From IMG/VR virus record IMGVR_UViG_3300025466_000139, positions 1-28,127 of that record: 28,127 bases of DNA; one strand, given 5' to 3'. Below, in pieces: positions 4,342 to 24,526 of this stretch. The notes beneath the pieces are model-generated. The model saw only the letters and a list, made by a program, of their open reading frames with translations, was not told the origin of the DNA and did not search any database. This DNA comes from a virus. Positions within the stretch are counted from its first letter, which is position 1. Each line of letters starts with the position of its first letter. A program made the position numbers and the translations under genes.

Positions 4342-4637
4342 TGCCAAGGAAGTTTAACTTTAAAGCCTGTTAAGGCAAAAGTTGCAAATCCGATAAAGAA
4401 AAACCACAGTAATCCGTGGCCGATTTTCATGGCCGCGCCATCATAAGCCAAGCGAAATTTACGCATGAGTTCCATATCTTTTCGGATTTGAGAGCGTTTT
4501 TCAGAATCGGTAGCATCTATACCAACTAATTCAAATTCTTTTCGGAGCGCATCAGGAAGTGCATCGCGGAGTGCTTCCTTGATGAGATTTTTCAAGTCGC
4601 TTCTGTCAATTGTCACCGTGTCTGAGAAAGGCTCCAT
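4338..4637 (-). CDS. Small membrane protein, one C-terminal TM segment
   Basis: A protein of 99 aa with an ATG at 4637 preceded by a good Shine-Dalgarno sequence (AGGTGG, spacing about 5). Residues 10-34 form a charged amphipathic helix ([20 protein letters not shown]). Residues 40-70 are charged, and residues 72-92 ([20 protein letters not shown]) are one clear transmembrane segment, followed by a short basic tail (KVKLPWQ). It sits directly after the spanin-like pair and overlaps the start of the fibre-like gene by 4 bases, so it belongs to the lysis and surface block. I do not recognise a specific family. A second holin, an antiholin or a pinholin-like regulator are possible, but nothing in the sequence decides this. 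Confidence 0.75.
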
Positions 4638-7005: not shown

Positions 7006-8673
7006 TTAGGATGCGTTTACCGAATCCGTCCAGCCCATAGCCGACATATAAGCGTAAATGCCATTTGAGGCGTAATACACATTTGAACTTTCCAAAACCC
7101 AATCAACAGATTGAGACATATAATAAGAACCATACCATGTGAAAGGTGGTAAATTGGTGGTTGAACTGACAGGTCCAAAATTATTACTTGGCGCGGCCAG
7201 TGTACTTGCACCACTACCGGCACCAGTATCGCAAATTTGCAAGTTGATGCGTGCCGCCGTTGGAGGTGCAAACGCTGCAATTGGGATGGCGGTCAAACCA
7301 TTTGCTGCGCTAATATTACCGCTTGCACCTGTAATCATTCTTGGATACGCGATTGTTGTTGTACTGGCCGCAATAACATATTGTGCGCGATTTCCCTGTT
7401 GCAAAGTTTGCATGAGAAGTTTGGACGGATTAGCATAAACCGCACCGACACGCATATAGTAAGTGTATCCTGACGGCAGCGTTGGAGCTGCGGCAGACAA
7501 ACTTAAAACGGCTGAAGTTGTGCTGCCATTATCAATCAACCACACATGATACCATGTGCTTGCGGCCACCACACCAGCATCTAATCCACCCGCGCCGACA
7601 AACGCAGTGCTGGCGGTGGTTGAGACATTGGCGCGAATTATGTTTGTGTATGAAGCATTTGGTATTTGTACATAGTTCGCTGTGATTGCGACAATCGTAT
7701 TCGAACCAGAACTATTTTTAATCACCAGACCGGAAGCGCTGGGCATTCCTGTGGATGGTGTTGTTACAGGTGGTACGGGCGACGCGCCGGAAGCTGGGAG
7801 ATAGCTGATTATCTTCCAAATTCCTGATCCTTGATAGGCCGCGATGCCAACGTCGCCCACAAGCCCAATGAGATTTACACTTCCCGGACAGAGCAAACTG
7901 GCCGAATTTGTAAAAGTGGTTGTGGCGCTAACCGTGAATTGATAATCTGGGTACGAAGTTGAAGCTGAGGATCCGAATGAAGTGATTGTTCCGCTTCCGG
8001 TCAGCAAAATATTATGCGTAACCACTGAGCCAAAATCTACAGTGGCTGCAACAGCTTTAGAAGTTTGAATACCATAGCCGCCGCTGCTGACATTTATGCC
8101 TAAAAGTGCCACAGCCGCCGCTGTTGTTGCGGCGTTGACAACGGGCTGCATGGCTGAAGATACAATCGCGCCGCTAGTGACTGGCAAACCAGCAATCATA
8201 TTACCGCTGCTATCAAATGCTGCGTATTGATTGGCTCTAGCTGTTGCCGAAGGTAATGGTAAGGGTGGATTGCTATCCGTAAGCGGCGCCGTAAAACCAT
8301 AACCGATTGAATTTTCAACTTGTTGAATGGCCATTGTTACATAATCAAGAGCCGATTCAATCACAGACGGCAAAAAATATCCTTGATTATTGAAACTGTA
8401 ATTTTGAACGTATGGCACATTTCGAGCGATAGTCAGCGAAGTTCCGATGGCGATAGCCGCGCCTGAAATTGTATAGGTGACTGTTCCGCCAGTTGGAGAA
8501 CCGATACCGGTGATCGTATATTGGCTTTCTGGCAGTGTGGTGCTTAGGCCATTTCCGTCGGTGTAAATTACCAGTTCGTCGCCCAAAACCGGAATAAGAA
8601 ATGGATAGGCGAATGACGTTTGCGCGCCAGTGCCGGGCAAAACTACCTTGCTGATGGTGGTTGATATTGTCAT
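7006..8673 (-). CDS. Tail fibre protein with podovirus N-terminal adaptor domain
   Basis: A protein of 555 aa with an ATG at 8673 and an AGAAG-type SD. Residues 1-135 have the layout of the T7 gp17-like fibre N-terminal domain that docks on the tail: TTISKVVLPGTGAQTSFAYPF, YTDGNGLSTTLPESQYTITG, GGTVTYTISG, LTIARNVPYVQNYSF and VIESALDYVTMAIQQVENSI. Residues 150-290 continue as a beta-rich stalk (QYAAFDSSGNMIAGLP, GSGTITSFGSS, GIWKIISYLP). The region from about residue 300 is a distinct module that includes YYMRVGAVYANPS and RAQYVIAAS. The C-terminus (NLPPFTWYGSYYMSQSVDWV) is aromatic and probably binds the receptor. There is no signal peptide, unlike the second fibre-like gene downstream. It follows the ejection protein genes, the usual T7-like position. 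Confidence 0.85.
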   Translation of the reverse strand: MTISTTISKVVLPGTGAQTSFAYPFLIPVLGDELVIYTDGNGLSTTLPESQYTITGIGSPTGGTVTYTISGAAIAIGTSLTIARNVPYVQNYSFNNQGYFLPSVIESALDYVTMAIQQVENSIGYGFTAPLTDSNPPLPLPSATARANQYAAFDSSGNMIAGLPVTSGAIVSSAMQPVVNAATTAAAVALLGINVSSGGYGIQTSKAVAATVDFGSVVTHNILLTGSGTITSFGSSASTSYPDYQFTVSATTTFTNSASLLCPGSVNLIGLVGDVGIAAYQGSGIWKIISYLPASGASPVPPVTTPSTGMPSASGLVIKNSSGSNTIVAITANYVQIPNASYTNIIRANVSTTASTAFVGAGGLDAGVVAASTWYHVWLIDNGSTTSAVLSLSAAAPTLPSGYTYYMRVGAVYANPSKLLMQTLQQGNRAQYVIAASTTTIAYPRMITGASGNISAANGLTAIPIAAFAPPTAARINLQICDTGAGSGASTLAAPSNNFGPVSSTTNLPPFTWYGSYYMSQSVDWVLESSNVYYASNGIYAYMSAMGWTDSVNAS

Positions 8674-8727: not shown

Positions 8728-11700
8728 TTAGCGAGGTGTAGCGCCGGGAAAACCATTCTTTTTCTGTTGTGTAGCTTTTATCACGATGTCCTGATATTCC
8801 ATTTTTATCATACCTCGTGCCGTATCTCTGGTTCGCTTGATGACTTCATTGATGGAATCATGCCGCTGCTCATCATTCATTTGTTTGAAAGCAGTTGATG
8901 CGACAAGAGTATCAAGATTTTTCTTGGTCATTCGGCCGGCGATTTGAGCATATCTGTCAAATTGCTCATCGGTCAAAACGACATTTGCAATTTTTCGTTC
9001 GACCTGAGCCGGATGAATGTGCAAATCCATCATCGCTAAAATAACCGGATCTCGGTTAAGATGACTTTCGTATATAGATGAAAGTGGCCCACCGATAGAT
9101 GCTGGATGCTGAATTGGCTCACCCCAAATATCACGTTTTGGGAGTAGCGTATCCGATTCATACGGAATTTTTGATTTTACTGCATCTAATAATGAACGTG
9201 TTTCGCGCATATACGGATCAGTATTGCGATCTAATTGCGACAGCATAGCCGAATACGGCACAAAAGACGAAACAAAATTCTTAATATAGCTTGCACCAAA
9301 TCTATCAGGTTCATCAAGAGCCTTAATTAGATCAGCGGGGCCTTTCATAAAACTCTCGTCCAAAATATTTTTGGATATGCTTTGCACAACGCTTGCCGCA
9401 ATTTGAGCAGCGGTTTCGGTTGGCAATTTATGTGCGACTTCATAAAAATCAGCACCGAGGCTGGCCAGCAAACCTAGTGGTCCGAGACGATGAAGATCAT
9501 AAAACATATCACCAATTTTGACACTGTGCGGCTGGTATCCAGCCATCCGCCACAAATTTGCTTCGTCACGATTGACTGGACCAGAGCCTGTCATTTGGCC
9601 GGCAGCGGCCAGAGAACCGAAGAGAGTTGCAACTGTGGTTCCAATCAGCATACGGGCAGCGGCCATATCGGCGACGTAATTGTCTTTGCTGAAAAGTTCG
9701 GCGCGTACATCGCTACTCAGAAAACCTAAAGGAGTTCTTTCGGAAAGTGTACGAGCGAGAATATCGCCAGATATACGGGCGAAAGGCAAAACAAATTTAA
9801 TAAGGGGCGCACCTAAAATTTTCTGATTGGTCAGATTGGTCAGTGCATTTGTAATTTTACCACCTTTTGACAGCAAAGATGTTCGTTTTGCTTCGAACAT
9901 TGCTGTTTCCATCATTTCAGCGGTTGGATTTTGCGCTAGGTAGGCAGTTCGAGCGTGAAAATCACTATCGACATGGCCTTCCTCTGCGGCTTGACGATAA
10001 GCCAATTGACGAATTTCGGCTGAATAGTTGCCAGCGTATAGGACAGCGTGCAGCGCTCCAACTGCGCGGCTTGGCATACGGACAAGTTCGCCGGTGGGAA
10101 GATAATACCCAAACAAAGCCACATCCGGCGTGGCGCCGTTTTCACTGTATATCGGGGCAATTCCATTTGCACCTTTGATGGTGTTAGAATCAATAAGTGC
10201 CTGCCCTGCTTTAAAAGCATCTCGCGGCGCTTGCATCAAAGCATGAAGTGCCGATCCGACTGCAACCCAATCTGCATTTGGATCCAATCTTTCAGCGGGT
10301 GTTCCACCTGTATTATAAAGATCAAATGTTTTTTGTGTTTCATAACCTTCTTCACCCGGAAGCAAAGTCATTTTTCCGGTGCGTAAAGCGTCAACAGCGG
10401 CCTTCATGCCGGGTGCAAAACCTTGCTTGTAACCTTTTAAACGCGCACCAATTTCTCCAAAGGATACTGTATTACCAGTACGTCCGAGAACTGTTCGCAG
10501 CATTCCAATTGCCGCAGCTGTGGGAACCTGAGCGGCAGTACGTTCAGCCGCCATTATGCCGTTACCTGTCAGATACGTCATGTGAGTAGCAAGGCCAGAA
10601 ATAATATTGTTGATAAATATTTCTAAAGCCATATTTGTTCCGCTAAATTTTTTCGCGTCTCGGTAGAATTTGGCTTGTTTTTCAGGCGTATCCTGTAATG
10701 CGCCGCGATCAATCTCCTGCAATGCTTGATAAAGCGTTTGGCCAAAGTCTCTTTTTATGTAATTTGCCCGTTCAAGATCGCTTTTGAGTTCGGCAGATTT
10801 GCGAAATGCGCGAGTAGCGCGGCCAGATTCAGCGGTTATGCCAGAAAAATATTCTTGAATGCGAACGTTATCTTCTCTTGATTCCAAGAAAGCGATCACA
10901 TCTTCAGGGGCTCTGGTCTGTCGGGCTTTTTTCTCTAGCGTGGCAGTTTCGGCCAGTGATTGTTCCAAAAGTCGGCGGCCTAATACCACTTCAACGCTAT
11001 TGGCTGCGTGGCCAACTGTCCAATTATCAAGATTTACGCGAGCTTGCGGCAAGCCTAAAATATCAGCCATACGCTGAACTTCAACATCTGGTATCACACC
11101 TTGGCGTGCGGCTAGAAAATCATTGTTGCTTTCAGCATTGGCGTGCATCTGATCGTTAATTGCTTCTCGCAAATCCGCAATAGATCGGACGTTTGCGACT
11201 ATAATATTTCCGGCTTTATCGAGGCGTTTGGATTCGGATTTTGAAGATATGTCAGGTTTTGATCTTGGAGCGAGGGGATGGATTCCGCTTGCATTCCCAT
11301 TTCGGGCATCGTCGATTGCTGGCTTTGGTACGCCAACGCCTTCATTCCGAGTTTCGCTTCCGCTTGGTTTGACCTGCTCATCGACGCGGCCACCGCCGCC
11401 GCCTGCGGTGACAGGTTCGGGTCTTGCGCCACCCTCGCCCATGTTTTTTGCTCCTGCTGCGCCTGCGCCACCTTCTGCTGGAGGCTGGGTTGCGCTGCTT
11501 GCTTTTGTGAGTGCGGCTTCGAGTTCACTATTCAACTCTCCTATTTTTGCATGTGCAGCTTGAAGTTCGGCCAATATTTCTGGCGAAACACCTTCTAAAT
11601 TTCTGTTTTTTTCATCAGCAATACGTTCTGCGGCGACTTCAGCTTCTGAGGCTTTTACAGTCTGCGCGTCTTTAATATGCTCATCAGCCAATGTTACAGG

Positions 11701-14700
11701 CTCTGGCCGATCACCAGTAATGATGGTGCGCCGTGGTTCGCTGGTTAAAAATCGGTCAAAAATCGAACGGATATTCTCATTTATAGGCACGCCAAGTTCA
11801 TCAGCCGATTTATATATCTGCCGGAACCATTTATTAAGTGTTTGAAAAAGACGTGCAAGTGCGGGACTTGGCGCAGTTTCATCTCTTAAATAACGCTCAT
11901 AAGCGCGTGCTAATTTTTCATGCGCGACAGCCCACAATTGCTCTTCGCGACTACCTTTCGCGGCCTGTGAAAAATCTTCAACTCCGAGAAATTCCAAAAT
12001 TTTCTTTGCGTCATCTTTAACTTGTTCAGGCGCGTCAGGATGCCGAGAATCTCTCATGAGATTGTTTAAAAACCGATGAGCACCTTCATGAAATAATGAG
12101 GACGCATTTCTTGTTCTGAAAATTGTCATCAAATCTCGACCGTTCGCATTTGAATTTAATATAATGCTTGCGTTCGGGGGTGCTTTTTTCTTTTTTTGAA
12201 ACAGCGTTGCCTGATTTTCATCTGTCTCAGCCACTTCACTTATCGGCTGGCCATTTTCGTCTCGGTATATGCTTCCCTCTTTTTTGAAACGCTCATAATC
12301 GGTTTCAACGGCTTTGCGTACATTTTGAACGGCTTGGTCGCGGGTGATTTTTTTATCAGTGAGATCACGCGCATTTTCTTTTAGGACATCAGCAACCACT
12401 GAACCGGCCGAAAATTTTGTCCGATCAAAATATTCAGAAATTTGCGAAGTCGTTTCCGACTTGGCAATATTGCCAGCCACATCAATTTTACCGAGAATAT
12501 TTTCAGCGCCTGTTGCAGCTGTTTTTGTCTGCCGAGTGATTTGAGCTAATATAGAATTGACATCGCCAGAAATTTGCGACTCGGCTTTGATGTTCGGAAG
12601 ATCAATCTTCCCAAACATTTCAATTTGAGCCTGACCTTCCGCTTTTGCAACGTTGGCATTCTTTACACGATCAATGATGTATTTTGTTTCAGCCGCATTT
12701 TTAGGTTTTAATTCAGTGATGAGATGCAAAGCCTGAAGCTGGCGAACACCATCATTTTTTAGTTCACGGCCAACCAAAGCACCTTGATCTTCAGTAATTC
12801 CACCAATACCTTGTTTCACATAACCAAATGCTTCATCTGACAAAACAGCCAAATTGCGCGGTTTTTCTGCTGATTTACTGGTTGCACCTTCTAAATATTC
12901 AGGGTGCATCCGCATAATTGTCGCGCCATCAAGAGCGCTGCCGGAACCGCGAACAATGTTGATCATCGCGCCACGGACACGAGCATCTTCTACCGTAACA
13001 CCATCGACTTCACGAATTAAAACGCCCGGTATATCTATATGTTTTTCAATGCCATTTTTGATCAACCAACGCGCAAGACCGGTGCGTTGATGGCCATCGA
13101 CCACAATTAAATTGCCGTTTCGCTCTTGCCATACAAGAATACCTTGGCCCTGCTCCGGCACCCACGCTTTTGTATTTTTGAGTTCATCGGTTACGCCAAA
13201 TTCATCACCACCGGATTTGTATTGCATCCGATTTGCATCGGTTATCAAAGACTCGACATCGAAAAGCCGATTGACACCTTTTTTGGCTTCCTCCGGAGAT
13301 GAAAATTTAAGCGTCTCGTTAGGATCAAATTTTTTGATCGAATCTACGCCTTTGGTTTCGATCTGTGTTTTAAGGTCTTTTTGTTGTTCGGAAACGGCTT
13401 TTTGTTCCGTTTTAATTTCTTCGGTAGATGCGTGAGGCTCTGCGGTCAGCTCTTCAATTGTTTTACCGTTAATTTTTACAGGCTCGATGACTTTATTTGC
13501 AGGCACCGAATTTTTAGTTTCCACCAGCCAACTCGGTACGCTAGGTTTTGGCGCTCTGGCTCCTGTAACTTTATTCAGAATATCAAAATAATCTTTACGA
13601 TACAGATCAACCGCGTCACCGTAAAGACCTTTCATATTCTCAGCGCGTGCAACAAATTCATGTGCAAAAAATTCAGCATGAGCTTCTAACTCATTTTCAG
13701 GAATTTTAACATAAGCCAAGCGCTTCATCATGTCTTGTTTGATGTATTCAAATTGAATTGCGATCGGCTGAGAAACTTTGGCCGGTTTAGCGGCCACTAC
13801 AGGCGCAATCGGCGCAGTTGATACATTGGGAGCGACAGGCGTGGATTCAGCCGCTGCCTGCTCGCGCGCACGCTGTAAACGCGGTTCTAAGGCTTTAAGC
13901 TCTTCTGCCGCATTTTCAACGCCGGTTTTCCCGTTAATCTTAAATTGATCATTCGTTTCCAAAAGATATTTTCTTAACTCGGTCAGTTCTTTATGCCGTT
14001 TAAAGGCTTCAGGATCAAATTTTTCGGCAGGATCTTTAACTTCAGCATTTTGAACTTTTGTAGGTTCACTGATTTTAGTTGTGACGCCATTGCGCGTAAC
14101 CCAAGTGCCTTGCTCTTTTTCTGTTATCAAAGCGGGCGCACCCGCAGTTCCAACTTGTTCAGTGTTGGTTGCAGTGCCAAACATATCCAAAGCGGCTAGC
14201 GGCAATTTTGCCGCTTCACCTGTTGGTCGAGCAACTTGCGTTTCTGTTTCAGGAAACAATGTTGCGCCGTTTCGACGCACTTCCTCTTTTTGAGCCTCAG
14301 TTGGAACGATGCGGTTTGCAACAGGTTGCGGTTCGACAACTTCCGAATTGTACATGTCGGCGGCTTGACGACGTAGATAATTGATAGGTTCGCGCAAAGC
14401 CCAAAGCTGATCATCTATCTTGGCCATTTGCGACAGTGCGGCAGTCATTTCAGCCGTGTGCGGAACTTCACCCGATCTAAAAGTTCTTCGACGTGCCAGT
14501 GCATCATCAAGATCGGCTTGTGCAGCTTTAACTTGAACCATCAATCGACGTTGTTGCGGTCCTCTCGCATAAACGCCTGAAATGCCATTATGCCGGTCGA
14601 GTTGATCTTGAGCATTTTCAAGACGCTCTTGCGCCGCAGTTAAATACTCTTCCGAAGGATTGGCAAAACTTTCAAAATGTTGCTTAATGTCATTTCTTTG

Positions 14701-15645
14701 AGCAATCAATTCATCTTGTTTTGCAAATAAACCATCTTTGTCAATTTTGCGCGCCGCTGAATCCGCATTGATCGAATATTGATTATGGCCAACCGCCATT
14801 GTTTCAATGAGTGCTGGAAGTTGATCGGCTCGTTCGACATCGGGTGGTCGTTGTGCAGATCCGGTGATCGTTTCTTCTGCGCCATATATGCCGGATGCGC
14901 GCGCTTCAGCCACTGTCACAGGCGATCCTGAAATAGCACGCGCACCGAAATTATTTAATTTTTGTGCGATTGGCGTATGGCCATTGAATACGAGGCCAAA
15001 ACCTGTCGAAATTGCTACTTTTGTCCAATCAAAAGGCTGATTTTCTTGATACTCGCTTTGGGCTTCTAAACCACCCATCATCAACCCGCCAAAAGCACGA
15101 GAGCCGAGTTGGCTATTCATCAATCTTTCAAGCGTGCTGGCAGTAGCCGGGAGTGTTTTTGTGGCGAGCGTCGGCCAAGATGTTAATGCGTAGGGTGCAA
15201 AACCGCCGACGAATCCTGCTATCGGATGTTGTTGCTGGCCAGCGATTTGAGTTTTTTCATCAAACCCTGTGGCTTCTAAAAACCGATTGGGTAATTTATC
15301 CGCAACAAAATCTTGTGCTTTTCCGGCTAAGTATGAACCGCCAAAGAAACCGCCAAGACCGCCGGCAAAACCACCTAATGCCGCTCCAATCGGACCGGCA
15401 ACCGCGCCAACTCCCGCACCTAATTCCGCACCTGCGCCAGCCGCCGCAAAGCCACCGGCTGCGGGTATTGTACTGCGTGCAGCGCCTCTAAAAAATTCAC
15501 CTGTGGCGCTGGTTTGCGCGCCGATTGGCGTGCCGCCCAAAGTGTCATCTATAAATTTACCGAAATCATCAGTATTTGATTTTTGCGAAGGAACCGCATA
15601 AGCCGCAAAAGGATCTAAATTTGCTGTGGTGTTTTCGTCGGCCAT
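8728..15645 (-). CDS. Giant polyvalent ejection protein (ParB-like and HExxH domains)
   Basis: A protein of 2305 aa from the ATG at 15645, with AGGA 8 bases upstream. A TTG one codon earlier is possible. Residues about 50-110 are a Gly/Ala-rich hydrophobic segment (AGAELGAGVGAVAGPIGAAL) that could insert in membranes. Residues 290-700 are charged and coiled-coil rich. Residues about 790-905 resemble the DdrB/ParB-like domain of polyvalent proteins (LFDVESLITDAN, LIVVDGHQRTGLARWLI). Residues about 1175-1300 resemble the polyvalent metalloprotease: HEGAH at 1186-1190 fits HExxH, followed by VAHEKLARAYERYL and LNKWFRQIYKSADELG. Residues 1375-1460 are a Gly/Pro linker. The last 600 residues have hydrophobic helices (AARMLIGTTVATLFGSLAAA). 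Position next to a gp14-like protein and a transglycosylase, and its size, fit an internal virion protein injected with the DNA, possibly acting against host defences. Domain calls are from motifs. Confidence 0.8.
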   Translation of the reverse strand: MADENTTANLDPFAAYAVPSQKSNTDDFGKFIDDTLGGTPIGAQTSATGEFFRGAARSTIPAAGGFAAAGAGAELGAGVGAVAGPIGAALGGFAGGLGGFFGGSYLAGKAQDFVADKLPNRFLEATGFDEKTQIAGQQQHPIAGFVGGFAPYALTSWPTLATKTLPATASTLERLMNSQLGSRAFGGLMMGGLEAQSEYQENQPFDWTKVAISTGFGLVFNGHTPIAQKLNNFGARAISGSPVTVAEARASGIYGAEETITGSAQRPPDVERADQLPALIETMAVGHNQYSINADSAARKIDKDGLFAKQDELIAQRNDIKQHFESFANPSEEYLTAAQERLENAQDQLDRHNGISGVYARGPQQRRLMVQVKAAQADLDDALARRRTFRSGEVPHTAEMTAALSQMAKIDDQLWALREPINYLRRQAADMYNSEVVEPQPVANRIVPTEAQKEEVRRNGATLFPETETQVARPTGEAAKLPLAALDMFGTATNTEQVGTAGAPALITEKEQGTWVTRNGVTTKISEPTKVQNAEVKDPAEKFDPEAFKRHKELTELRKYLLETNDQFKINGKTGVENAAEELKALEPRLQRAREQAAAESTPVAPNVSTAPIAPVVAAKPAKVSQPIAIQFEYIKQDMMKRLAYVKIPENELEAHAEFFAHEFVARAENMKGLYGDAVDLYRKDYFDILNKVTGARAPKPSVPSWLVETKNSVPANKVIEPVKINGKTIEELTAEPHASTEEIKTEQKAVSEQQKDLKTQIETKGVDSIKKFDPNETLKFSSPEEAKKGVNRLFDVESLITDANRMQYKSGGDEFGVTDELKNTKAWVPEQGQGILVWQERNGNLIVVDGHQRTGLARWLIKNGIEKHIDIPGVLIREVDGVTVEDARVRGAMINIVRGSGSALDGATIMRMHPEYLEGATSKSAEKPRNLAVLSDEAFGYVKQGIGGITEDQGALVGRELKNDGVRQLQALHLITELKPKNAAETKYIIDRVKNANVAKAEGQAQIEMFGKIDLPNIKAESQISGDVNSILAQITRQTKTAATGAENILGKIDVAGNIAKSETTSQISEYFDRTKFSAGSVVADVLKENARDLTDKKITRDQAVQNVRKAVETDYERFKKEGSIYRDENGQPISEVAETDENQATLFQKKKKAPPNASIILNSNANGRDLMTIFRTRNASSLFHEGAHRFLNNLMRDSRHPDAPEQVKDDAKKILEFLGVEDFSQAAKGSREEQLWAVAHEKLARAYERYLRDETAPSPALARLFQTLNKWFRQIYKSADELGVPINENIRSIFDRFLTSEPRRTIITGDRPEPVTLADEHIKDAQTVKASEAEVAAERIADEKNRNLEGVSPEILAELQAAHAKIGELNSELEAALTKASSATQPPAEGGAGAAGAKNMGEGGARPEPVTAGGGGGRVDEQVKPSGSETRNEGVGVPKPAIDDARNGNASGIHPLAPRSKPDISSKSESKRLDKAGNIIVANVRSIADLREAINDQMHANAESNNDFLAARQGVIPDVEVQRMADILGLPQARVNLDNWTVGHAANSVEVVLGRRLLEQSLAETATLEKKARQTRAPEDVIAFLESREDNVRIQEYFSGITAESGRATRAFRKSAELKSDLERANYIKRDFGQTLYQALQEIDRGALQDTPEKQAKFYRDAKKFSGTNMALEIFINNIISGLATHMTYLTGNGIMAAERTAAQVPTAAAIGMLRTVLGRTGNTVSFGEIGARLKGYKQGFAPGMKAAVDALRTGKMTLLPGEEGYETQKTFDLYNTGGTPAERLDPNADWVAVGSALHALMQAPRDAFKAGQALIDSNTIKGANGIAPIYSENGATPDVALFGYYLPTGELVRMPSRAVGALHAVLYAGNYSAEIRQLAYRQAAEEGHVDSDFHARTAYLAQNPTAEMMETAMFEAKRTSLLSKGGKITNALTNLTNQKILGAPLIKFVLPFARISGDILARTLSERTPLGFLSSDVRAELFSKDNYVADMAAARMLIGTTVATLFGSLAAAGQMTGSGPVNRDEANLWRMAGYQPHSVKIGDMFYDLHRLGPLGLLASLGADFYEVAHKLPTETAAQIAASVVQSISKNILDESFMKGPADLIKALDEPDRFGASYIKNFVSSFVPYSAMLSQLDRNTDPYMRETRSLLDAVKSKIPYESDTLLPKRDIWGEPIQHPASIGGPLSSIYESHLNRDPVILAMMDLHIHPAQVERKIANVVLTDEQFDRYAQIAGRMTKKNLDTLVASTAFKQMNDEQRHDSINEVIKRTRDTARGMIKMEYQDIVIKATQQKKNGFPGATPR

Positions 15646-15659
15646 CAATCAAATCCTAT

Positions 15660-18600
15660 TTAATATATACGCCATGTTGAATTTGGCGGAGGGGCGCCAT
15701 TTTTCGGTGACATTACCGACCAATCAGGTAAAGGTCGAGTTATATCTTCAGGCGGGCCTAATTTCTTAATATAATCTTCGGCGTGCGATATGCCTTGTGT
15801 TGTAGCAAATTTCGCATTGAATGCTGAGATATTTTCAGGTTTTGGATCACGCAACAAAGCGGTAACAACGGTTGCCCATTCATCCGCGCCCACATATCTC
15901 TGCGTTCCGCTCTTTTCTGTAATTTTTGGCAGATTACGCATCATGGTATTCCATTCAATAGGATTGACGCCTGCCGGTGGTTTAGGAACATTTGTTTCTG
16001 CAAGTATGCGATACATAGGCGTATCAATTGCCAATGTGGATTCTTGTTTTTCACGCTCCATAAGCGCATCGTATTTTGCTTTTTCTTTTTCGGCAGGTTC
16101 GCGATAAATTTTAAAGAACGCATCTTGCTTTTTCGGATCTATGGCTAAAGGAAATTGAGTTGGATCATTACCATCCGCTACCCATTTTGTCATGGCAGTA
16201 TCAATATCACGAATAGCGTTTTCTTTGGCAATATTACCTTTAATATCAGTGTTGATTTTGCCTCCGGCATAATCCTGAGTTAGCACCAATTCATCTTTTG
16301 CTCTTTCAAACAAGCTGTTCAAAACTACAGCGCGGGAGGATGTGTAACCCTCTTGCTTATCCTTGAGCAGACTAAAACCAAGCTGAAAGCCAGCTTTATT
16401 TATCTCTTTGTTGGCGAATAGGGTTTCCAATTGGCCGACACTTTTTATACGGTCTGGGCGGTCAGCGGGCAATGTCAACCGTTTCATCATGTCATCGACG
16501 CCAGCACCATAAGTATCTTCATCATTCCCGGCCAGCTTATTGACAAGATTGTATAATGATAATTTTGAAGATGCGTTCAAATCGTCATTGTTTATTATTT
16601 TATCGACGAGAGCATTCAAACTTGCAGTGTCATGTTTTCTATCAAAAGTGAGGGCTTGCGTTGTGAAATCATTTTCAGCAATTCGAGATGCGTCTGCGGA
16701 TTTTCGCATGTTGGTTTCATATTGAATATTTCGTGCAGTGGCTTTCTTTGCCACTTGAGCACGCGCAATCGTTTTAACTTCTTCGCTCGCACCAGATTCT
16801 TCAATTCGCTGATACGCTTGCGCTTCAGAATCGGCGATCATTTGTTTTGTAACTTCAACCGGCCTAGGCGGAACATTAGCACCATTTTTAATCTCTGATG
16901 CAATCGCGTCCTCAGAAACGGGCATAACTTTAGGTTTAGCGGGTTCCTCTGCGGTGCTTACTGGAGCTACAACATCAGGTTTATTATAGTCGGTTAAAAG
17001 TGTTGGAGGTGAACCCATATCACTTTGCGAGAAACCTAAAGAGGGGGTCGTGATGTTTGTTTGCGGTGCAAAAGTATTCGTTCCGGTTATTGGAAAATCT
17101 CGAAATGCAAAACCCATTGCGGCGGTAGAAGGACGATCAGGTGCGCCAGATACACTTGCAGGCATGGTCATTGATCGACCGCCACCAATTGTAGCTTTGG
17201 CGTTATTAAATGTGACAATCCATTTATTTGCAAAATCTTGAGCTGATATATTTGAATCATCATTTTTGCCGATATTACCGCGAACAGCCTGCATGGCCAA
17301 AGCACGATTGCCTTTGTACGCATAGCGCGTAAGAGCATCAACAGCACTCATTTCAGGATGGCCGAGCAAAGCAGCCGCACCAACAGATCCTTGTTGATGC
17401 GCCAGATAGAGTTCAGCACCGGTGACATCCCGCCCAAGACGCCGATTTAAATCTTGCCGATTATCAATGGCTAGACGTTGAGCACCGATATAGGATTCGT
17501 TTGGATCTAATGGTGAGCCGTGAACGTATTTCTTTGCGGTGCCGGGCATAAATTGCATCACGCCTTGTGCAGCATGGCCGGGTTGCCCAGCACCAGTATT
17601 TGCACCAAAACGTGATTCAATATAAGCTGTAGTGGCTAAATCCTGTTCTGAAAATCCACCTTGTTTTTCCATCTCAACGGCTTGTTTCCAACCCCATGTT
17701 GATCGTACTGCATCCGGTATGGCCAAAGTAGGTAAAGCATTTGCTCCGACAGATGAAGCCGGTGGAATATCGGAAGCGTCAACCATACCACGAGTACGGG
17801 TTAAACTTGCCGCTGAACCGTGTAGATTGTCAGGTGTGTTTGGAGGGAATATTGTATCGCTTATTTTTTTATAGTCTTTTGGGTGTACGCCATCTGAAGA
17901 TAAATTTTCAGGGTCCAGTGGTCCCATAAAAGAAACGCCAGCTTTTTTGGCAATGTCTGATAATTGGCCATTCACATTCAAATTTTTAAAACTATCGTTA
18001 GGGCCAGTACCAACACCTGCAATATGAATACGCGAGGGTGCTATGCCCATGTCTGTAAACGCTTTAATCTGATCCGCAACAATCCCTATACTTTTTGGAT
18101 CATTTGACACGCCAGTTGATACTATGATGGCGCCAGTGCCGAAGTCAGCGGCTTTCATAGATTGAATTTTTGTTAATATGCGATTTGGTGTTAAGCCGAC
18201 AGTTGTATCGCCGGGCGCACCGGAAGCAGTGCGAATACCTTCGCCAATTGAATCGCCAATCACAAATGAATTTTTTGGATTACTATTGGCAGGAAGAGGA
18301 GGGGAAACACCCTCTGCAAGATTTCGGCCTTCGTAATCGTCGGCCTTTCTTTTGTAATCGTCGTACAAAGTTTCGTAATCAAGACCTAAAAATTGTGCGT
18401 TATCTTTGACCAATTGAAAAGATTTATCAGGACGTGTCGGCCCATACGCTTTAATTTTCACCTTAAGGAAGTATTTTTCACCATCGCGTATCGCCGCATC
18501 ATACTGCGGAGAACCTTCTACAGCTCCCGTATCGTGTAAAGCCTGTTTGACATGGGCATTTACTATATCGTGATGAGCGCTTTCTAAAACAGCATCGTCA

Positions 18601-19151
18601 AAAGGATGTGCCATAATTTGCTGAGTTGCAGCACTTGCCGTGTCAGAATTGACTTTAGAATACCATTCAGTTGCTTGCTTTGAGGAGTGTGTACCGATTT
18701 CACCCAAAGCATAATTGCTGGTGCGGCGCGAGCCGGTTTCAAATGTATAACGTGCAGCATCAGTTGGCATATTTGCACCAAGTGATTGACGTAGAGCTTC
18801 TAATTGCTGCTCGACCTGCGGGCGCGCACGCAATGCTGCTTCACCGTTCAAACCGAGGTAGCCAGTATCCGGCATGTCAGTGCCGTCTGGTCCTTTAATC
18901 ATTTTGTTTGGATCACCATGCAAAATGTGATTGGTTTGCTCTGTATATTTGTTTACCGCATCATCTGCCGATATTTCATTGTGAAGTGAGGCATATTTAT
19001 TAAGCCCTTCCCCAAGTTTCCCCAAACCTTCTGCAATTTGACCACCAAAAGCATTTGGATTGGCCGCAGGAACACTAATCGGACCGGCTGAAGATGGGCC
19101 AATTGGTTCGACTGTAGGCGTGGCATAAGGATCAGAAAGGAAATTTGCCAT
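15660..19151 (-). CDS. Ejection protein with SGNH hydrolase and lytic transglycosylase domains
   Basis: A protein of 1163 aa with an ATG at 19151 and a weak AGG upstream. Residues 1-290 are helical and charged. Residues about 294-437 carry the SGNH/GDSL blocks: GDSIGEG with Ser301, VSTGVSNDP with Gly347 and Asn350, and SSDGVHP with Asp420 and His423. Residues about 485-625 are an SLT transglycosylase domain: TTAYIESRFG with catalytic Glu512, AAQGVMQFMPGTA, LYLAHQQG and YAYKGNR. Residues 740-1163 are charged helices, including a 770-830 coiled-coil-like part. Known podovirus ejection proteins (T7 gp16) carry a transglycosylase that opens peptidoglycan during DNA entry, and this gene holds that position. 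The SGNH domain is an extra. It could remove O-acetyl groups that would block the transglycosylase, which is inference. It precedes the polyvalent gene by 14 bases. Confidence 0.85.
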   Translation of the reverse strand: MANFLSDPYATPTVEPIGPSSAGPISVPAANPNAFGGQIAEGLGKLGEGLNKYASLHNEISADDAVNKYTEQTNHILHGDPNKMIKGPDGTDMPDTGYLGLNGEAALRARPQVEQQLEALRQSLGANMPTDAARYTFETGSRRTSNYALGEIGTHSSKQATEWYSKVNSDTASAATQQIMAHPFDDAVLESAHHDIVNAHVKQALHDTGAVEGSPQYDAAIRDGEKYFLKVKIKAYGPTRPDKSFQLVKDNAQFLGLDYETLYDDYKRKADDYEGRNLAEGVSPPLPANSNPKNSFVIGDSIGEGIRTASGAPGDTTVGLTPNRILTKIQSMKAADFGTGAIIVSTGVSNDPKSIGIVADQIKAFTDMGIAPSRIHIAGVGTGPNDSFKNLNVNGQLSDIAKKAGVSFMGPLDPENLSSDGVHPKDYKKISDTIFPPNTPDNLHGSAASLTRTRGMVDASDIPPASSVGANALPTLAIPDAVRSTWGWKQAVEMEKQGGFSEQDLATTAYIESRFGANTGAGQPGHAAQGVMQFMPGTAKKYVHGSPLDPNESYIGAQRLAIDNRQDLNRRLGRDVTGAELYLAHQQGSVGAAALLGHPEMSAVDALTRYAYKGNRALAMQAVRGNIGKNDDSNISAQDFANKWIVTFNNAKATIGGGRSMTMPASVSGAPDRPSTAAMGFAFRDFPITGTNTFAPQTNITTPSLGFSQSDMGSPPTLLTDYNKPDVVAPVSTAEEPAKPKVMPVSEDAIASEIKNGANVPPRPVEVTKQMIADSEAQAYQRIEESGASEEVKTIARAQVAKKATARNIQYETNMRKSADASRIAENDFTTQALTFDRKHDTASLNALVDKIINNDDLNASSKLSLYNLVNKLAGNDEDTYGAGVDDMMKRLTLPADRPDRIKSVGQLETLFANKEINKAGFQLGFSLLKDKQEGYTSSRAVVLNSLFERAKDELVLTQDYAGGKINTDIKGNIAKENAIRDIDTAMTKWVADGNDPTQFPLAIDPKKQDAFFKIYREPAEKEKAKYDALMEREKQESTLAIDTPMYRILAETNVPKPPAGVNPIEWNTMMRNLPKITEKSGTQRYVGADEWATVVTALLRDPKPENISAFNAKFATTQGISHAEDYIKKLGPPEDITRPLPDWSVMSPKNGAPPPNSTWRIY

Positions 19152-19172: not shown

Positions 19173-19781
19173 TTAAACTTGGCCACCGCCGGCGAACCCA
19201 AAATTAGCTTGTTGAGTTCCAAACAGATAGGAGCCAAGATTAGGTGTATTGACTTGCCCGGGTGCAAATAAACTACCAATACTGGATGCGCCGCTTGCTA
19301 AAGAGGAACCCATACTGCCAAAATTACCAATACCGCCAGCCAAACTTCCAGCAGCGCCAAGAATACCACCGAAAATATCGAAAGATGCTTGTGATTCAAG
19401 AGCACTGGCCTGATCCAAATAACTTTTTTGCTGCGTGATATATCCATAGGCTTGTTTTTCGGCATTTGATTGAGTTGTTTGAACATTTGTATTTGCATTT
19501 TGAGTTGCACCAGCCTCAACATCCTTTACAGACCCAGTATTGACATCAATACCTTTCGCCGCAATACCAGCTTTATATTGTGCAATTTCTTCGCGACTTT
19601 TCAGACCTACATTGGTTGCTTGAATAGTACCGGCTTGACTTGTCCATTGTGCATTTTGCTGCGCGACAATCGCATTATTTCGGGCAATTTGAGCTTGATA
19701 ATCCGCAGCATTGGACGAAGCAATACCGCCCATAATTGAGCTGCCTGCGGAAATCAATGTGCCAAGCATAGCAAAGCCCAT
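19173..19781 (-). CDS. Internal virion protein, T7 gp14-like
   Basis: A protein of 202 aa with an ATG at 19781, one base after the upstream stop (TAACATG). Residues 1-25 form a Gly/Ser-rich hydrophobic segment (LGTLISAGSSIMGGIASS). Residues 27-125 are helical (AADYQAQIARNNAIVAQQNA, KAGIAAKGIDVNTGSV, QSNAEKQAYGYITQQ). This is the usual signature of podovirus gp14-like ejection proteins, in which Q-rich helices flank a GVDVNSGS-like turn. Residues 133-170 are a second Gly/Ala/Ser-rich hydrophobic segment. In T7 the protein forms the outer-membrane pore of the ejection channel. Order with the gp13-like gene upstream and the transglycosylase gene downstream supports this role. Confidence 0.8.
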   Translation of the reverse strand: MGFAMLGTLISAGSSIMGGIASSNAADYQAQIARNNAIVAQQNAQWTSQAGTIQATNVGLKSREEIAQYKAGIAAKGIDVNTGSVKDVEAGATQNANTNVQTTQSNAEKQAYGYITQQKSYLDQASALESQASFDIFGGILGAAGSLAGGIGNFGSMGSSLASGASSIGSLFAPGQVNTPNLGSYLFGTQQANFGFAGGGQV

Positions 19782-19782
19782 G

Positions 19783-20244
19783 TTATAATCCTATGTGATA
19801 GCGCCGAAAAGGTGCATTATTTATACCAAAAGGTTCTGGCTCGTCGAGTTTAAAGCCGCAAGCAATTAAAAAACTGCAAGCGCCACCATACGACGCATCA
19901 ACATAACCAATTAACTGTGGACGCCATTCTAGCATCTTTTGAACTTGCTGTCGCCCAACTTTAATGAAAGCAATCGGCATTCTAGCAGCTGCAGGCGTAG
20001 TCAATAACCAAGGATAACCTGTATGGCCGATATAACTACTGCACAATCCAAACATAAGGGCTAGATCACCATCTACAAAAATTGCATCAGCATATAAACT
20101 GTTGCGAAGGCTTTTCCAAATTGCTCGTTTTGGTGTTAATCCGCACACTTCAATTTCACGCCGATCACCATCTCTTAAATTATTGGCCAGTATTACAGCG
20201 TGTTCACCTGTTGCTGGTACAATATGTATTCTTGGATCAAGCAT
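19783..20244 (-). CDS. GNAT-fold internal virion protein, T7 gp13-like
   Basis: A protein of 153 aa from the ATG at 20244, chosen because GAGAAC lies about 5 bases upstream and it overlaps the upstream stop by 8 bases. ATG at 20259 is an alternative without a clear SD. The protein contains ATGEHAVILANNLRDGDRRE, VDGDLALMFGL, PWLLTTPAAA, QLIGYVDASY and FLIACGFKLDEPEPFG. This pattern is typical of the gp13/DUF2833-type GNAT-fold proteins found before gp14-like genes in podoviruses. In T7 gp13 is needed for virion assembly but is not known as an enzyme. The C-terminal ACGFKLDEPEPFG matches the end of acetyltransferase folds. Confidence 0.75.
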   Translation of the reverse strand: MLDPRIHIVPATGEHAVILANNLRDGDRREIEVCGLTPKRAIWKSLRNSLYADAIFVDGDLALMFGLCSSYIGHTGYPWLLTTPAAARMPIAFIKVGRQQVQKMLEWRPQLIGYVDASYGGACSFLIACGFKLDEPEPFGINNAPFRRYHIGL

Positions 20245-20464
20245 GAAGTTCTCGTTCATCGACAATTGGGCTTAAACGGTGCAGCCACTGCCGACAAATA
20301 TCATTGGCCGTGACCTCCGGCCATACTACGATAAATCTTAATTCACCGTCAATTTCTCTTTCCACCGTCCAAGGTGAATAATGACAAGTTAATTGTGATT
20401 CACTCACACCGTTTTTTTCGGCTCGCACCACAACAGCATTTTGACATTCTGCACAACCGGCCAT
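20237..20464 (-). CDS. Small cysteine-containing protein, unknown function
   Basis: A protein of 75 aa from the ATG at 20464, with GTGGGG about 9 bases upstream. An earlier in-frame start would overlap the nozzle gene and has no better support. It starts MAGCAECQN, a CxxC pair, and also has Cys38 (LTCHYSPWTV) and Cys61 (NDICRQWL). Two CxxC-like pairs could bind a metal, but there is no second clean pair. The middle is beta-like (GELRFIVVWPEV) and the C-terminus is helical (RQWLHRLSPIVDERELHA). Located between tail nozzle and gp13-like genes. I do not recognise the family. Confidence 0.7.
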   Translation of the reverse strand: MAGCAECQNAVVVRAEKNGVSESQLTCHYSPWTVEREIDGELRFIVVWPEVTANDICRQWLHRLSPIVDERELHA

Positions 20465-20468
20465 GATA

Positions 20469-23400
20469 TTACCCCACTTGATCGTCTGAATCACCACTTT
20501 CCCATGTCGGTGCTAATAGAAGCACATTCATAGGAAGTGGATTTATTTGCTGCACAGCCAAGAAACCGGGACTAGCTTCCCCATCAAGCATATTCCAATC
20601 ATCATCAATCGGTAGATAACGATCACCAGTGAATAGCGGAATTGCATGGCTGTTGTTTAAGGGAACATCACGTTCTTTAATTTCTTGCAGATTATTCCAA
20701 ATTGTTTCGGCTTGATACGGTGTCGTCGAAGCTGTAGGTTGATTAGCACCTGCAAAGACTCCGCGACTTTTATCCATACGGACAGTCATACCGGAAATTC
20801 TTTTACGTTTTCCTTGAATAGTAGTGTGACCGCCAGCTATATCCAAATGCAGAGTTTGAACTTGTGCAACAAAAGGCAAACCAATTGTTATAGCTGTTGC
20901 GGGATTAGGCAATTCTACAGTGCCATTTGTTACGGTCAAACCAGACACGACATTTCCGTCAGCTAAAGCAGTCACTTGCAAACCTTCCAAGTGTTGAAGA
21001 TTTGTAATTGTTTGTAAAGGAGTTGTTATTGTCCAGTCACCATAAGGAGCGGGTGCTGGCGTGTTATAAGGATCATTTGAAATAGTTAGAGTGATATTTT
21101 GTGACATCGTGCAAATGACTTGAAAAGCATTGACGAATGTAATCACAGTTCCGATACCGCCGCTCATACGAATTACCGAGCCGACATCGGCGGAAGTAAA
21201 TACAGGTTGATCTGCGGTGAAAGTTATGGAACGATCAATCGTCAAACCAACCGCACCACCATGGCCGGTAGGGTCTTGCAATTTTACTTGTATCCGGCTG
21301 TAGCTAGAACCGCCGTTCACAACAACGGCACTTGTTATCGAACCGCCAAATGCGCCATCACCGCCGAAATCTGTGTTGAAATCGCTATTAAAATCCGAAG
21401 TGACTGAAGTTTGCAGTTTAACAATCGCACCGTGCCCAGATCCTGACGGATCAGTTATGATTAAACTAGGGTTTGAATATCCCGTGCCACCATTGATAAC
21501 GAATGCAGTCAGGACACTTCCCGAACCGGACGCGGAACTGGCCGATAAATTAGCATTTCGTATGCCTTGTATTGATGCAAGGCCGCAATCAACGCACCAC
21601 GGATCTTCAGTATTCACCCACAAACGATTATCCATACGCTCGACATAGTAAGCCCATTTTGAATATGCGCGGATATATCTTTTCACTATGAAATAAATGG
21701 CGTCGATTGGTGGCTCAACGATAGATACAACAGACTGAAATAAGCCATTCGTATCGTGTCTCGCCCATCCGTTAATTTCTTGCTCTTTGAGATATGTAAG
21801 TGACAACGCTTTGCCGTCATCACGCACCGCCCACAAAAGTTTGTAGGGTTCTTTTGCCCAAGCCCATTCTTTAATCTGATGATTTTCAAGAAGGTGACTC
21901 GATAAAAAGCTGATGTCTGTACCAGCATAAATCTGTGCAAAGAAATTATACTGCAAAGAAATGACCACAGAACCTAAAGGCTGTAGATGGAGAATGTCGT
22001 AATTGATTTTTACAGGCGGCACAGTCTGTGAAAAGCCATTTGATGCTTGTGGCGTTGCACTTTGACTTGCTGGCGTAATGGCGCTTCCGTTTCCGTTTGC
22101 ACCTGACAACTGCCAAGCGTCCAACCCTGTACCAACGACTAAGCCGCCCGGCATTGGTTGCAGCCATTGAATACCATTGACCTGTAAGCCCCAAGGATTG
22201 CCGGAGATCGCATCGCTTGCAATTGGTGGTGATGCTGCGTCCATGTTGGTGTACGCGCCTGTCTGGCTCATCTGATACCCATCTGGGTTATTTAATGAGT
22301 TGGCATACACGCGACGCGATTGAAAATATGAAACAACACTCGGATATGTGCCGGTCTGCGGGCCGATTGTCAGTGAAGCAACAGCACCTGCCCCTGAACC
22401 ACTATCAGTAATAACAAGTGAATCTCCAGCTGTATAATTTTCGCCGGAATTTTGCACAATACAATCAACTACCACACCGCCGACAATGACCGGAGTGATG
22501 ACCGCGCCAGATCCGGTATTGGTTATAACATTTGCACCAACGGTGGCCTGAGTATAACCTGAACCTTGGCTGGTGATAACCGCATTTAAAATCATCCCGC
22601 GAGCAAAAGGATTTACATGAACTGGAGGGGTGCGTGTAAAATCTTGCGTGATGTTTGAATCTACAAATTGGTTGCCAAAAGATGTACCGGCGTAACCAAA
22701 TACGCTTCCGATTGGAACATCGGTATTGTACGATGAAGGCGCTTTATAAATATTGTAGTATCCTGCGGTATTAACCGGAGGCCAGTTAATTGTGATTGAA
22801 CCGAGATACAATGCAATATCGACAGAGTTCAAAACATACGCAATAGGCGATGCAACACTTTCTTGGCCGGTGATAGAATCAACTGCGGTAACGCAATATG
22901 CGTATTTTGTCGGTAATTGCTGACCACTGGTGACTGGCGTTAAAGTCGAAGCAGTGGCGGTGCACGCTGTTGGCGGCAAAATTGATGAAGCATAATTTGT
23001 CTGCACAAATACCCAATTATTTGACGAATAACGTGTCAAATCATAAGGCGGATATTCGGTCAAAGTATTTTGATTTACGCAAGTTAAACTCATTACGTCT
23101 GCGGATTGCGTAAATTTTAAAAACGGTAAATCTACAGCTGAGTATGGTGTTGTTTGCGTATAAACTTTGGCCGCTGTTCCACCGCCAGTCCAGCCGGACA
23201 GGCTTAAACCGTTATAGGAATTTCCAAACATATCAGCAACGGAAACAAGGCAGGATGAACCAACAATGACTGGATTTGTCAGCACGACAAAATATAGATT
23301 GTTTAAGGCCAACAATCCGGTCATCCCGGATACATAAAACATATCTCCAGCTTTCCATGTGGAAGCGTTAAGAGGCAATGTCATTCCGAGAGGCCAAGTG

Positions 23401-23729
23401 CTCGCAATACCCAATATATTTAAAGGTGTTTCAGTGATATACGCGCCTTGTGAAATTACGCGCATATACTGATCGCCAAATTCAAGAGCATAAGACTGTT
23501 GAATTGAAAAGCGAAATGGAATTAAACGTGGCGGGAGAGCCGTACCGTTTTGCAAACACGGGCCGACAAATGCAGTTCCGGCGCGCGAGGCCGTACCGCC
23601 GCGATAATTTACAAAACTGTTCCGCATGACGGAACAACCGGAATGAAATTTCGCTTGATCAGTTCGACCCCAAAACGCGGGGTTTATTTCACCTGATGCG
23701 AATGATGGCCGAGCTGTGGTTTGCGACAT
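20469..23729 (-). CDS. Tail nozzle protein, T7 gp12-like, enlarged
   Basis: A protein of 1086 aa with an ATG at 23729 that shares one base with the upstream stop (TAATG). The N-terminus RPSFASGEINPAFWGRTDQA and RNSFVNYRGGTASRAGTAFVG is typical of podovirus nozzle (tail tubular B-like) proteins. YALEFGDQYMRVIS, TPYSAVDLPFLKFTQSADVM and PPYDLTRYSSNNW are further typical blocks. Residues about 255-345 look like an inserted fibronectin-like domain (YAYCVTAVDSITGQESVAS). Residues about 382-456 and 740-832 are two pairs of GGxGY repeats. Residues 570-720 hold the core (VISLQYNFFAQIYAGTDISF, YVERMDN). T7 gp12 has 794 residues, so this one is about 290 longer, mostly from insertions. It forms the distal tail tube and fibre attachment ring. 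Confidence 0.85.
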   Translation of the reverse strand: MSQTTARPSFASGEINPAFWGRTDQAKFHSGCSVMRNSFVNYRGGTASRAGTAFVGPCLQNGTALPPRLIPFRFSIQQSYALEFGDQYMRVISQGAYITETPLNILGIASTWPLGMTLPLNASTWKAGDMFYVSGMTGLLALNNLYFVVLTNPVIVGSSCLVSVADMFGNSYNGLSLSGWTGGGTAAKVYTQTTPYSAVDLPFLKFTQSADVMSLTCVNQNTLTEYPPYDLTRYSSNNWVFVQTNYASSILPPTACTATASTLTPVTSGQQLPTKYAYCVTAVDSITGQESVASPIAYVLNSVDIALYLGSITINWPPVNTAGYYNIYKAPSSYNTDVPIGSVFGYAGTSFGNQFVDSNITQDFTRTPPVHVNPFARGMILNAVITSQGSGYTQATVGANVITNTGSGAVITPVIVGGVVVDCIVQNSGENYTAGDSLVITDSGSGAGAVASLTIGPQTGTYPSVVSYFQSRRVYANSLNNPDGYQMSQTGAYTNMDAASPPIASDAISGNPWGLQVNGIQWLQPMPGGLVVGTGLDAWQLSGANGNGSAITPASQSATPQASNGFSQTVPPVKINYDILHLQPLGSVVISLQYNFFAQIYAGTDISFLSSHLLENHQIKEWAWAKEPYKLLWAVRDDGKALSLTYLKEQEINGWARHDTNGLFQSVVSIVEPPIDAIYFIVKRYIRAYSKWAYYVERMDNRLWVNTEDPWCVDCGLASIQGIRNANLSASSASGSGSVLTAFVINGGTGYSNPSLIITDPSGSGHGAIVKLQTSVTSDFNSDFNTDFGGDGAFGGSITSAVVVNGGSSYSRIQVKLQDPTGHGGAVGLTIDRSITFTADQPVFTSADVGSVIRMSGGIGTVITFVNAFQVICTMSQNITLTISNDPYNTPAPAPYGDWTITTPLQTITNLQHLEGLQVTALADGNVVSGLTVTNGTVELPNPATAITIGLPFVAQVQTLHLDIAGGHTTIQGKRKRISGMTVRMDKSRGVFAGANQPTASTTPYQAETIWNNLQEIKERDVPLNNSHAIPLFTGDRYLPIDDDWNMLDGEASPGFLAVQQINPLPMNVLLLAPTWESGDSDDQVG

Positions 23730-24526
23730 TAGAAAACACTGCCTCCCGGCATACTCAAGCTATCCCAGCCGATCAATGCAGATGCGGTATTCATGCCGAC
23801 TGGACGTGACATGCGAATTTGAATCCAATCTGGTGTGTTATCAACAACACTTGTACCTTCATTACCGTCAGACATTCGAGCTTGCCGAACAAGTTCAGTG
23901 GCCAATGCAACAGATTTTGCGGCCAATTGATTGTTGCCGGTGATTGGTTCGCATATCCATGAAGCTAAAAGCGCCACGGCAGCATCAAGAAAATTTGAAT
24001 CCCATAAATCGGGATCGTCAATGCGCGCGGTGTAAACAAGCTGCGCTTGAGGCACATTTGTCAAAATAACGCGAATTTGATTGCCGTTTGCATCGACATC
24101 ACTACTTGTTATGAAAGGCGCTTCGACACCGCTATAAGGTGTCATCATAGTGCCGCCTGATGTCGTGAAAGGCACGCTCGATGCGTTTACAGCCGTCACC
24201 GGCCAGATTGGAACAATATAGCGAGGCTTCAAGCAATAAGGTTGCGACGGCCAAGCATATTCGTATGCCCAAGGCATAGGCGGAACAGGGGTCACTCCGT
24301 TTAAGTTTTCGGGAGTGCCGCGCGCTGCTTTCAGTAAAGTAAGACCGGATTGATAACGAGCGCAGTTCCAATGAGCTGCACGAAAAAGCGCGTCAATACG
24401 ATTTTGATATTGACGCGACAATATATTAGCGGCTAGCGAACCATCACTAGGGTCGATGCTCGTAACAGTCGCGCGAGCGCGGATCAGATCAAGTGCCTGA
24501 TTACAAACATCAATTACTGAAGTCAC
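23729..24526 (-). CDS. Head-to-tail adaptor / tail tubular protein A, T7 gp11-like
   Basis: A protein of 265 aa. The start is GTG at 24526, supported by a strong AAGGGG about 8 bases upstream in the 10-base gap. No early ATG is available. Residues 1-60 are helical (VIDVCNQALDLIRARATVTS, RQYQNRIDALFRAAHWNCAR). The middle is beta-rich (PWAYEYAWPSQPYCLKPRYI). Then QLVYTARIDDPDLWDSNFLD, VALLASWICEPITGN and KSVALATELVRQARMSDG follow, the classic pattern of the gp11-like adaptor in BPP-1-type and T7-type podophages. It sits between portal and nozzle in the tail. The next gene overlaps by one base. Confidence 0.85.
   Translation of the reverse strand: MTSVIDVCNQALDLIRARATVTSIDPSDGSLAANILSRQYQNRIDALFRAAHWNCARYQSGLTLLKAARGTPENLNGVTPVPPMPWAYEYAWPSQPYCLKPRYIVPIWPVTAVNASSVPFTTSGGTMMTPYSGVEAPFITSSDVDANGNQIRVILTNVPQAQLVYTARIDDPDLWDSNFLDAAVALLASWICEPITGNNQLAAKSVALATELVRQARMSDGNEGTSVVDNTPDWIQIRMSRPVGMNTASALIGWDSLSMPGGSVF

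Follow-up and report, generated by a model that had tools for sequence, protein, structure and literature searches.

The window analysed here, i.e., the whole stretch of 28,127 nucleotides of the IMG/VR virus record IMGVR_UViG_3300025466_000139, encodes a 1163-aa protein in which an SGNH hydrolase-like domain precedes a lytic transglycosylase-like (SLT) domain, and the question arises what the former would contribute to a protein that probably travels with the virion. An earlier note on this DNA had proposed that the two domains act as an injected de-acetylase and cleavage pair. Through O-acetylation of their peptidoglycan, bacteria are protected from lysozymes as well as from lytic transglycosylases; if the proposal were true, a virion enzyme that lifts this block beside the very enzyme that is blocked would be an answer to how phages enter through O-acetylated walls.

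The protein and its place in a T7-like cassette

The structural genes of the window are arranged as a T7-like gp11-gp17 cassette on the minus strand, with the 1163-aa protein in the gp15 slot:

23729..24526, minus strand: gp11-slot tail protein (phrog_394, E=2.6e-32)
20469..23729, minus strand: gp12-slot tail protein (phrog_376, E=1.1e-145)
19783..20265, minus strand: gp13-slot internal virion protein of T7 type (phrog_308, E=6.6e-30)
19173..19781, minus strand: T7 gp14-like internal virion protein (phrog_418, E=9.6e-23)
15660..19151, minus strand: putative gp15-slot ejection protein, 1163 aa, between the gp14-like and gp16-slot genes
8728..15648, minus strand: gp16-slot giant internal virion protein, 2306 aa (phrog_6651 internal virion protein, E=5.1e-28)
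7006..8673, minus strand: tail fibre gene, at the end of the cassette after the gp16 slot

These slot names reflect gene order and PHROG matches, not sequence similarity of the 1163-aa protein to T7 gp15. Judged by its position in the cassette, the protein is probably an ejection protein and a putative component of the virion, in agreement with the earlier note. An assembly error as the origin of the fusion was ruled out: it recurs in two contigs besides the window, both near-identical to the latter and hence saying little about conservation.

Two predicted enzyme domains

Within the 1163-aa protein, the following features were assigned:

17826..18284, minus strand: SGNH-like hydrolase domain, aa 290-442 (profile built without the window, AF2, Foldseek)
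18237..18257, minus strand: block I GDSIGEG, aa 299-305, predicted nucleophile Ser301 (Ser in all aligned relatives)
18195..18200, minus strand: block II V318-G319, predicted oxyanion Gly ([VI]G in all aligned relatives)
18099..18119, minus strand: block III STGVSND, aa 345-351, predicted oxyanion Asn350 (G..N or G.N in all aligned relatives)
17880..17900, minus strand: block V SSDGVHP, aa 418-424, Asp420/His423 (DxxH in all aligned relatives)
17148..17684, minus strand: SLT lytic transglycosylase-like domain, aa 490-668, predicted catalytic Glu512 (codon at 17616-17618)

The earlier note had covered 17277-18272, which corresponds to aa 294-625, and its motifs (GDSIGEG from aa 299, STGVSND from 345, SSDGVHP from 418) and residues (S301, G347, N350, D420, H423 and E512) are found exactly in the translation. 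Its description of the SGNH blocks as complete is right as to the motifs and the set, which comprises Ser301, Gly319, Asn350, Asp420 and His423; however, it had left out Gly319, the residue of block II, and the Gly347 that it named belongs to block III.

Relatives of the SGNH domain were gathered by DNA patterns and tblastn. The aligned relatives are ~17-35% identical to the window, and each of them has retained the Ser, Gly, Asn, Asp and His; in an eight-sequence alignment the block residues make up most of the invariant columns. Since a profile of nine relatives that did not include the window recovered the window domain at E=1.7e-19 (2924 ORFs), the match is not a chance one. On the domain itself, Pfam (even at a loose cut-off) and NCBIfam gave no SGNH match, and PHROGs returned mainly an unnamed family of 4846 positions, phrog_19273 (E=2.2e-7). 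By sequence, the window domain is too divergent for the library models, and its motifs are correct nonetheless; Lipase_GDSL_2 is matched by the relatives L011 (E=9.9e-6) and L006 (E=7.9e-5), in both cases under the Pfam cut-off. The giant phage protein family phrog_19273 holds the same SGNH domain at profile positions ~557-713, the place matched by the window domain and by five relatives. Searches of the PDB by phmmer with the window domain and with the stand-alone relative P0006 gave chance matches or none, and narrow-pattern scans of genome contigs (n=2) yielded no relative. With the domain alone, tblastn against the phage collection found only weak matches, including Staphylococcus amidase matches; proteins like that of the Salmonella phage Spp16, also among them, are real by profile.

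An AlphaFold (AF2) model from a 10-sequence alignment of the window and IMG/VR loci reached pLDDT 86.6 and pTM 0.83, with strands and helices alternating in a three-layer alpha/beta/alpha fold; it superseded a single-sequence run on aa 281-475 (pLDDT 47, meaningless fold matches). In Foldseek, 37 PDB structures matched at E<=0.001, and SGNH/GDSL enzymes or scaffolds derived from them account for nearly all of these; the modelled domain thus has the SGNH fold that the earlier note had expected. Of the reference enzymes named there, OatA and PatB were matched, whereas Ape1 is absent among the matches listed for profiles A3 and A5 and for Foldseek. S. pneumoniae OatA was the best PDB match of profile A3 (E=8.5e-6 and 1.5e-5), and profile A5 gave 8gr2 followed by C. 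jejuni PatB (E=0.0011 and 0.0015). In the Foldseek search, PatB (8tlb) appeared at E=7.7e-5 and S. aureus OatA with TMq 0.59 / TMt 0.61 at 21% identity. Together, profile and modelled fold place these two O-acetyltransferases among the nearest characterised wall enzymes. By E-value, uncharacterised GDSL lipases/acylhydrolases come first in Foldseek, and since these, TesA and PAF acetylhydrolase are all close by fold, the structure leaves acetyl specificity undecided.

The SLT domain starts ~50 residues C-terminal of the SGNH domain. Its Pfam match (E=0.0019) lies under the cut-off, and phrog_22520 (E=9.6e-16) and phrog_4067 'transglycosylase' (E=1.6e-14) match it clearly; Glu512, within an ES motif, and a downstream G..Q are kept in Rhizobium Autographiviridae and other relatives, which bears out the earlier reading of an SLT domain around Glu512. 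In the Rhizobium phages (L037/L040/L041), the SLT domain is N-terminal in the last internal virion protein, which comes after a distinct 674-aa protein and in which an SGNH domain was not seen. No SGNH-type GDS motif occurs in the SLT-bearing ORFs of these phages or of L038, L039 and L044-L049 (the one GDS in that of L049 is unlike the SGNH domain), and the pairing with SGNH is therefore not general among SLT proteins.

Wall-cleaving partners of the SGNH domain

Relatives were picked by SGNH-domain queries or by the pattern DGxHPKDY, and the partner domain was no criterion. In each of the ten kinds of large virion protein with the SGNH domain, a wall-cleaving domain, or a match to such a family, occurs at least once:

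Window, 1163-aa putative ejection protein: SGNH and SLT
L013/L022: SGNH and GH24
L019, Helicobacter prophage tape measure: SGNH and GH24
L018, Synechococcus phage S-H38: SGNH and M15 peptidase
L023: SGNH and a C-terminal part of endolysin family, SLT-like by eye
L025: SGNH and DPBB lytic transglycosylase (E=0.0007, under the cut-off)
L026: SGNH and Phage_lysozyme2, a tail lysozyme (E=2.6e-24)
L027/L029: SGNH and SLT_3 (E ~6e-18)
L035: SGNH and an endolysin-family match, M15-like by eye
L011, T4-gp5-like hub: SGNH, hub-lysozyme and C-terminal endolysin-family matches

As wall enzymes are frequent in tape-measure and hub proteins generally, this ten-out-of-ten pairing is only suggestive. In the 1490-aa hub (L011, 1702-6174, minus strand), the SGNH domain lies between an OB domain and the hub-lysozyme match, and an M15-like motif (HGTGQAVDIHF) can be seen by eye towards the C-terminus.

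Judged from the sequences, stronger evidence for coupling than this count comes from a module swap within one tape-measure family. Between L025 and L026, identity is 94.7% over the N-terminal 586 residues, 96.4% in the SGNH domain and 92.2% over the C-terminal 102 residues, whereas their middle modules, a DPBB transglycosylase and a tail lysozyme, are unrelated and have short ends alone in common. The same position is taken by SLT_3 in L027/L029 and by the M15-like module in L035, the N-terminus of which is incomplete. Four unrelated muralytic modules thus occur in this family beside an SGNH domain that is 80-98% identical and represents the most conserved segment in every pair compared. As the SGNH domain is kept while the cutters are exchanged, it probably contributes to a step that all cutters share. 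The family can be regarded as a set of natural chimeras, in which the SGNH domain could be compared beside glycosidases, transglycosylases and peptidases.

Proposed function and alternative explanations

From our point of view, the SGNH domain is most likely an O-acetyl esterase acting on peptidoglycan, after which the neighbouring enzyme would be able to cut; on the sequence and model evidence, we favour this predicted activity over each of the alternatives, at about even odds. The protein would then represent a two-enzyme wall opener carried by the virion. Following attachment, it would be ejected into the periplasm with its gp14/gp16-like partners, as the T7-like cassette suggests. As a serine esterase of minimal OatA/PatB-like type, with the presumed triad Ser301-Asp420-His423 and the oxyanion residues Gly319/Asn350, the SGNH domain would strip O-acetyl groups from muramic acid, and the SLT domain downstream would then cut the MurNAc-GlcNAc bond as a lytic transglycosylase, for which a free C6 hydroxyl is needed. 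O-acetylation at C6 of MurNAc blocks lytic transglycosylases (PMC1199599), and a cellular precedent in trans is known from N. meningitidis, in which LtgA and Ape1 associate in a complex, each stimulating the other (PMC7083599). What speaks against de-O-acetylation as the common step are the M15 partners (L018, L035), which would not be expected to need it; peptidases and glucosaminidases are named as unaffected by O-acetylation (PMC6174289). The functional coupling that the earlier note had put forward is supported independently in that the domain recurs beside unrelated cutters in other phage virion proteins and stays while its partner is swapped.

In a broader version, these domains would form a phage-specific, OatA/PatB-related SGNH family for 'wall unlocking' that is joined to unrelated cutters in podovirus ejection proteins, tape-measure proteins and T4-like hubs and kept while the cutter is exchanged, and wall de-acylation at entry would be a general and so far unrecognised infection step. 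We regard this as tentative, its probability falling somewhat short of even.

Four other explanations can be imagined. The domain could be an acyl hydrolase of the lipase or lysophospholipase type that acts on a membrane, inner or outer, and loosens it at the ejection channel independently of the cutter. Ejection and tape-measure proteins traverse membranes as well as the wall, and SGNH/GDSL lipases, TesA/lysophospholipase L1 and PAF acetylhydrolase are close by fold. Nevertheless, we consider such a role unlikely, given that the recurrent partners are wall-cleaving and that those modules alone are swapped, that OatA and PatB lead the profile searches, and that the domain is minimal (~150 aa), with a size near that of the S. 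aureus OatA catalytic domain.

We assign the same low probability to an OatA-like acyltransferase that would move acetyl groups between wall sugars, for example limiting the cut of its neighbour or protecting the wall after entry. Its main attraction is that the best solved relatives by profile are O-acetyltransferases, and block II adds to this: the OatA motif is (V/I)(G/S)(R/V), with the Val before the Gly position favouring transfer over hydrolysis (PMC5697884), and [VI]G is found in all aligned relatives, VGR in several of them. The window reads V318-G319-L, its third residue lying outside the OatA motif, and it keeps the Gly that is replaced by Ser/Asn in SpOatA and PatB (PMC5697884, PMC12148441). 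Because the window domain both keeps this Gly and has Val318, the sequence does not settle the choice between esterase and transferase. However, an activated acetyl ester is hydrolysed in vitro by the isolated catalytic domain of OatA (PMC5697884). In a scan of the 1163-aa protein alone, no AT3 or MBOAT acyl-donor domain was found, which makes hydrolysis the simpler reading.

A shade less probable still is the deacetylation of surface glycans such as capsule, O-antigen or exopolysaccharide, as by SGNH tail fibres and tailspikes. Against this reading, the domain is found in ejection, tape-measure and hub proteins, which act after surface binding, beside wall enzymes, and not in the fibre gene of the window (7006-8673). 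Phage fibres and spikes do often carry SGNH deacetylases (PMC7693777; PMC4925675), and among the pattern matches there is a GDSL-like protein, L012, whose role is uncertain. Lastly, a catalytically dead domain with a wall-binding or structural role is very improbable, as the surroundings of block V are altered in some relatives (DKIHTDY in L018) but Ser, Gly, Asn, Asp and His persist in all aligned relatives despite the low identity.

Relation to known systems

An SGNH domain beside another domain in virion proteins is already known, and SGNH tail fibres and spikes are common (PMC7693777). The closest described case of the former are the tail-associated lysins (Tal) phi11 Gp44 and 80alpha gp59, which, like the window protein, are virion proteins of the penetration machinery combining SGNH/GDSL with a second domain (PMC4876445, PMC7048315); the latter is called an endopeptidase in phi11 Gp44 (PMC4876445, PMC7048315), a protein that is also listed in PMC5380687. 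They differ in being siphophage hubs for a Gram-positive host, with a larger SGNH domain and no transglycosylase, and the activity is likewise putative there. T7 gp16 resembles the window protein in that an SLT domain is part of an internal virion protein encoded within a gp11-gp17 cassette (PMC5380687). In T7, however, the transglycosylase is gp16, whereas in the window the SLT domain is central in the gp15-slot protein, with SGNH before it, and none was detected by Pfam or PHROGs in the 2306-aa gp16-slot protein (8728-15648).

The C-terminal domain of OatA and PatB share the minimal SGNH fold predicted for the window, and the (V/I)G of block II is common to OatA; in contrast to these enzymes, the window domain lacks an AT3/MBOAT partner, is part of a putatively ejected phage protein and, unlike SpOatA and PatB, keeps the Gly. 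The functional parallel is Neisseria Ape1 with LtgA, where an SGNH de-O-acetylase and a lytic transglycosylase come together (PMC7083599), as separate proteins in a complex rather than in one polypeptide, and with an Ape1 that is absent among the matches listed for the window domain. In the 1196-aa protein of Synechococcus phage S-H38 (QPB07895.1), a homologue of the SGNH domain (E=4.1e-48, window-free profile) accompanies a muralytic domain, but the protein is tape-measure-like, stems from a Kyanoviridae phage and has an M15 peptidase as partner. In the open-access literature searched, no description of an SGNH-transglycosylase ejection protein or of the partner exchange was found.

Stand-alone relatives and other features of the window

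The SGNH domain also occurs in small stand-alone proteins (L006, L020, L021, L007/L008). In L006 (1600-2004), a 134-aa SGNH protein has neighbours that look by eye like a glycosyltransferase and a sugar-nucleotide dehydrogenase. The Salmonella podophage Spp16 (Autographiviridae) and a relative (L007, 1031-1882; L008, 1641-2474) encode a protein of 277-283 aa that probably has a signal peptide and contains a distantly related form of the domain; in Spp16, the gene lies near the left genome end, away from any tail or ejection gene.

In the window itself, unnamed PHROGs families cover part of the gp16-slot protein (8728-15648, minus strand), in which a stretch resembling ParB (VVDGHQRTGLARW) and a HEGAH motif of zincin type can be recognised by eye, comparable to polyvalent injected proteins. 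The tail fibre (7006-8673, minus strand) shares its N-terminus with numerous phage tail fibres and weakly matches the second Mtd domain (PF21916, E=3.9e-5, slightly under the cut-off); a direct repeat suitable for a diversity-generating retroelement was not seen near this Mtd-like fibre. Finally, a 1245-aa protein without family matches (610-4347, minus strand) is encoded by a gene with internal direct repeats, some of which are spaced 696 nt apart.
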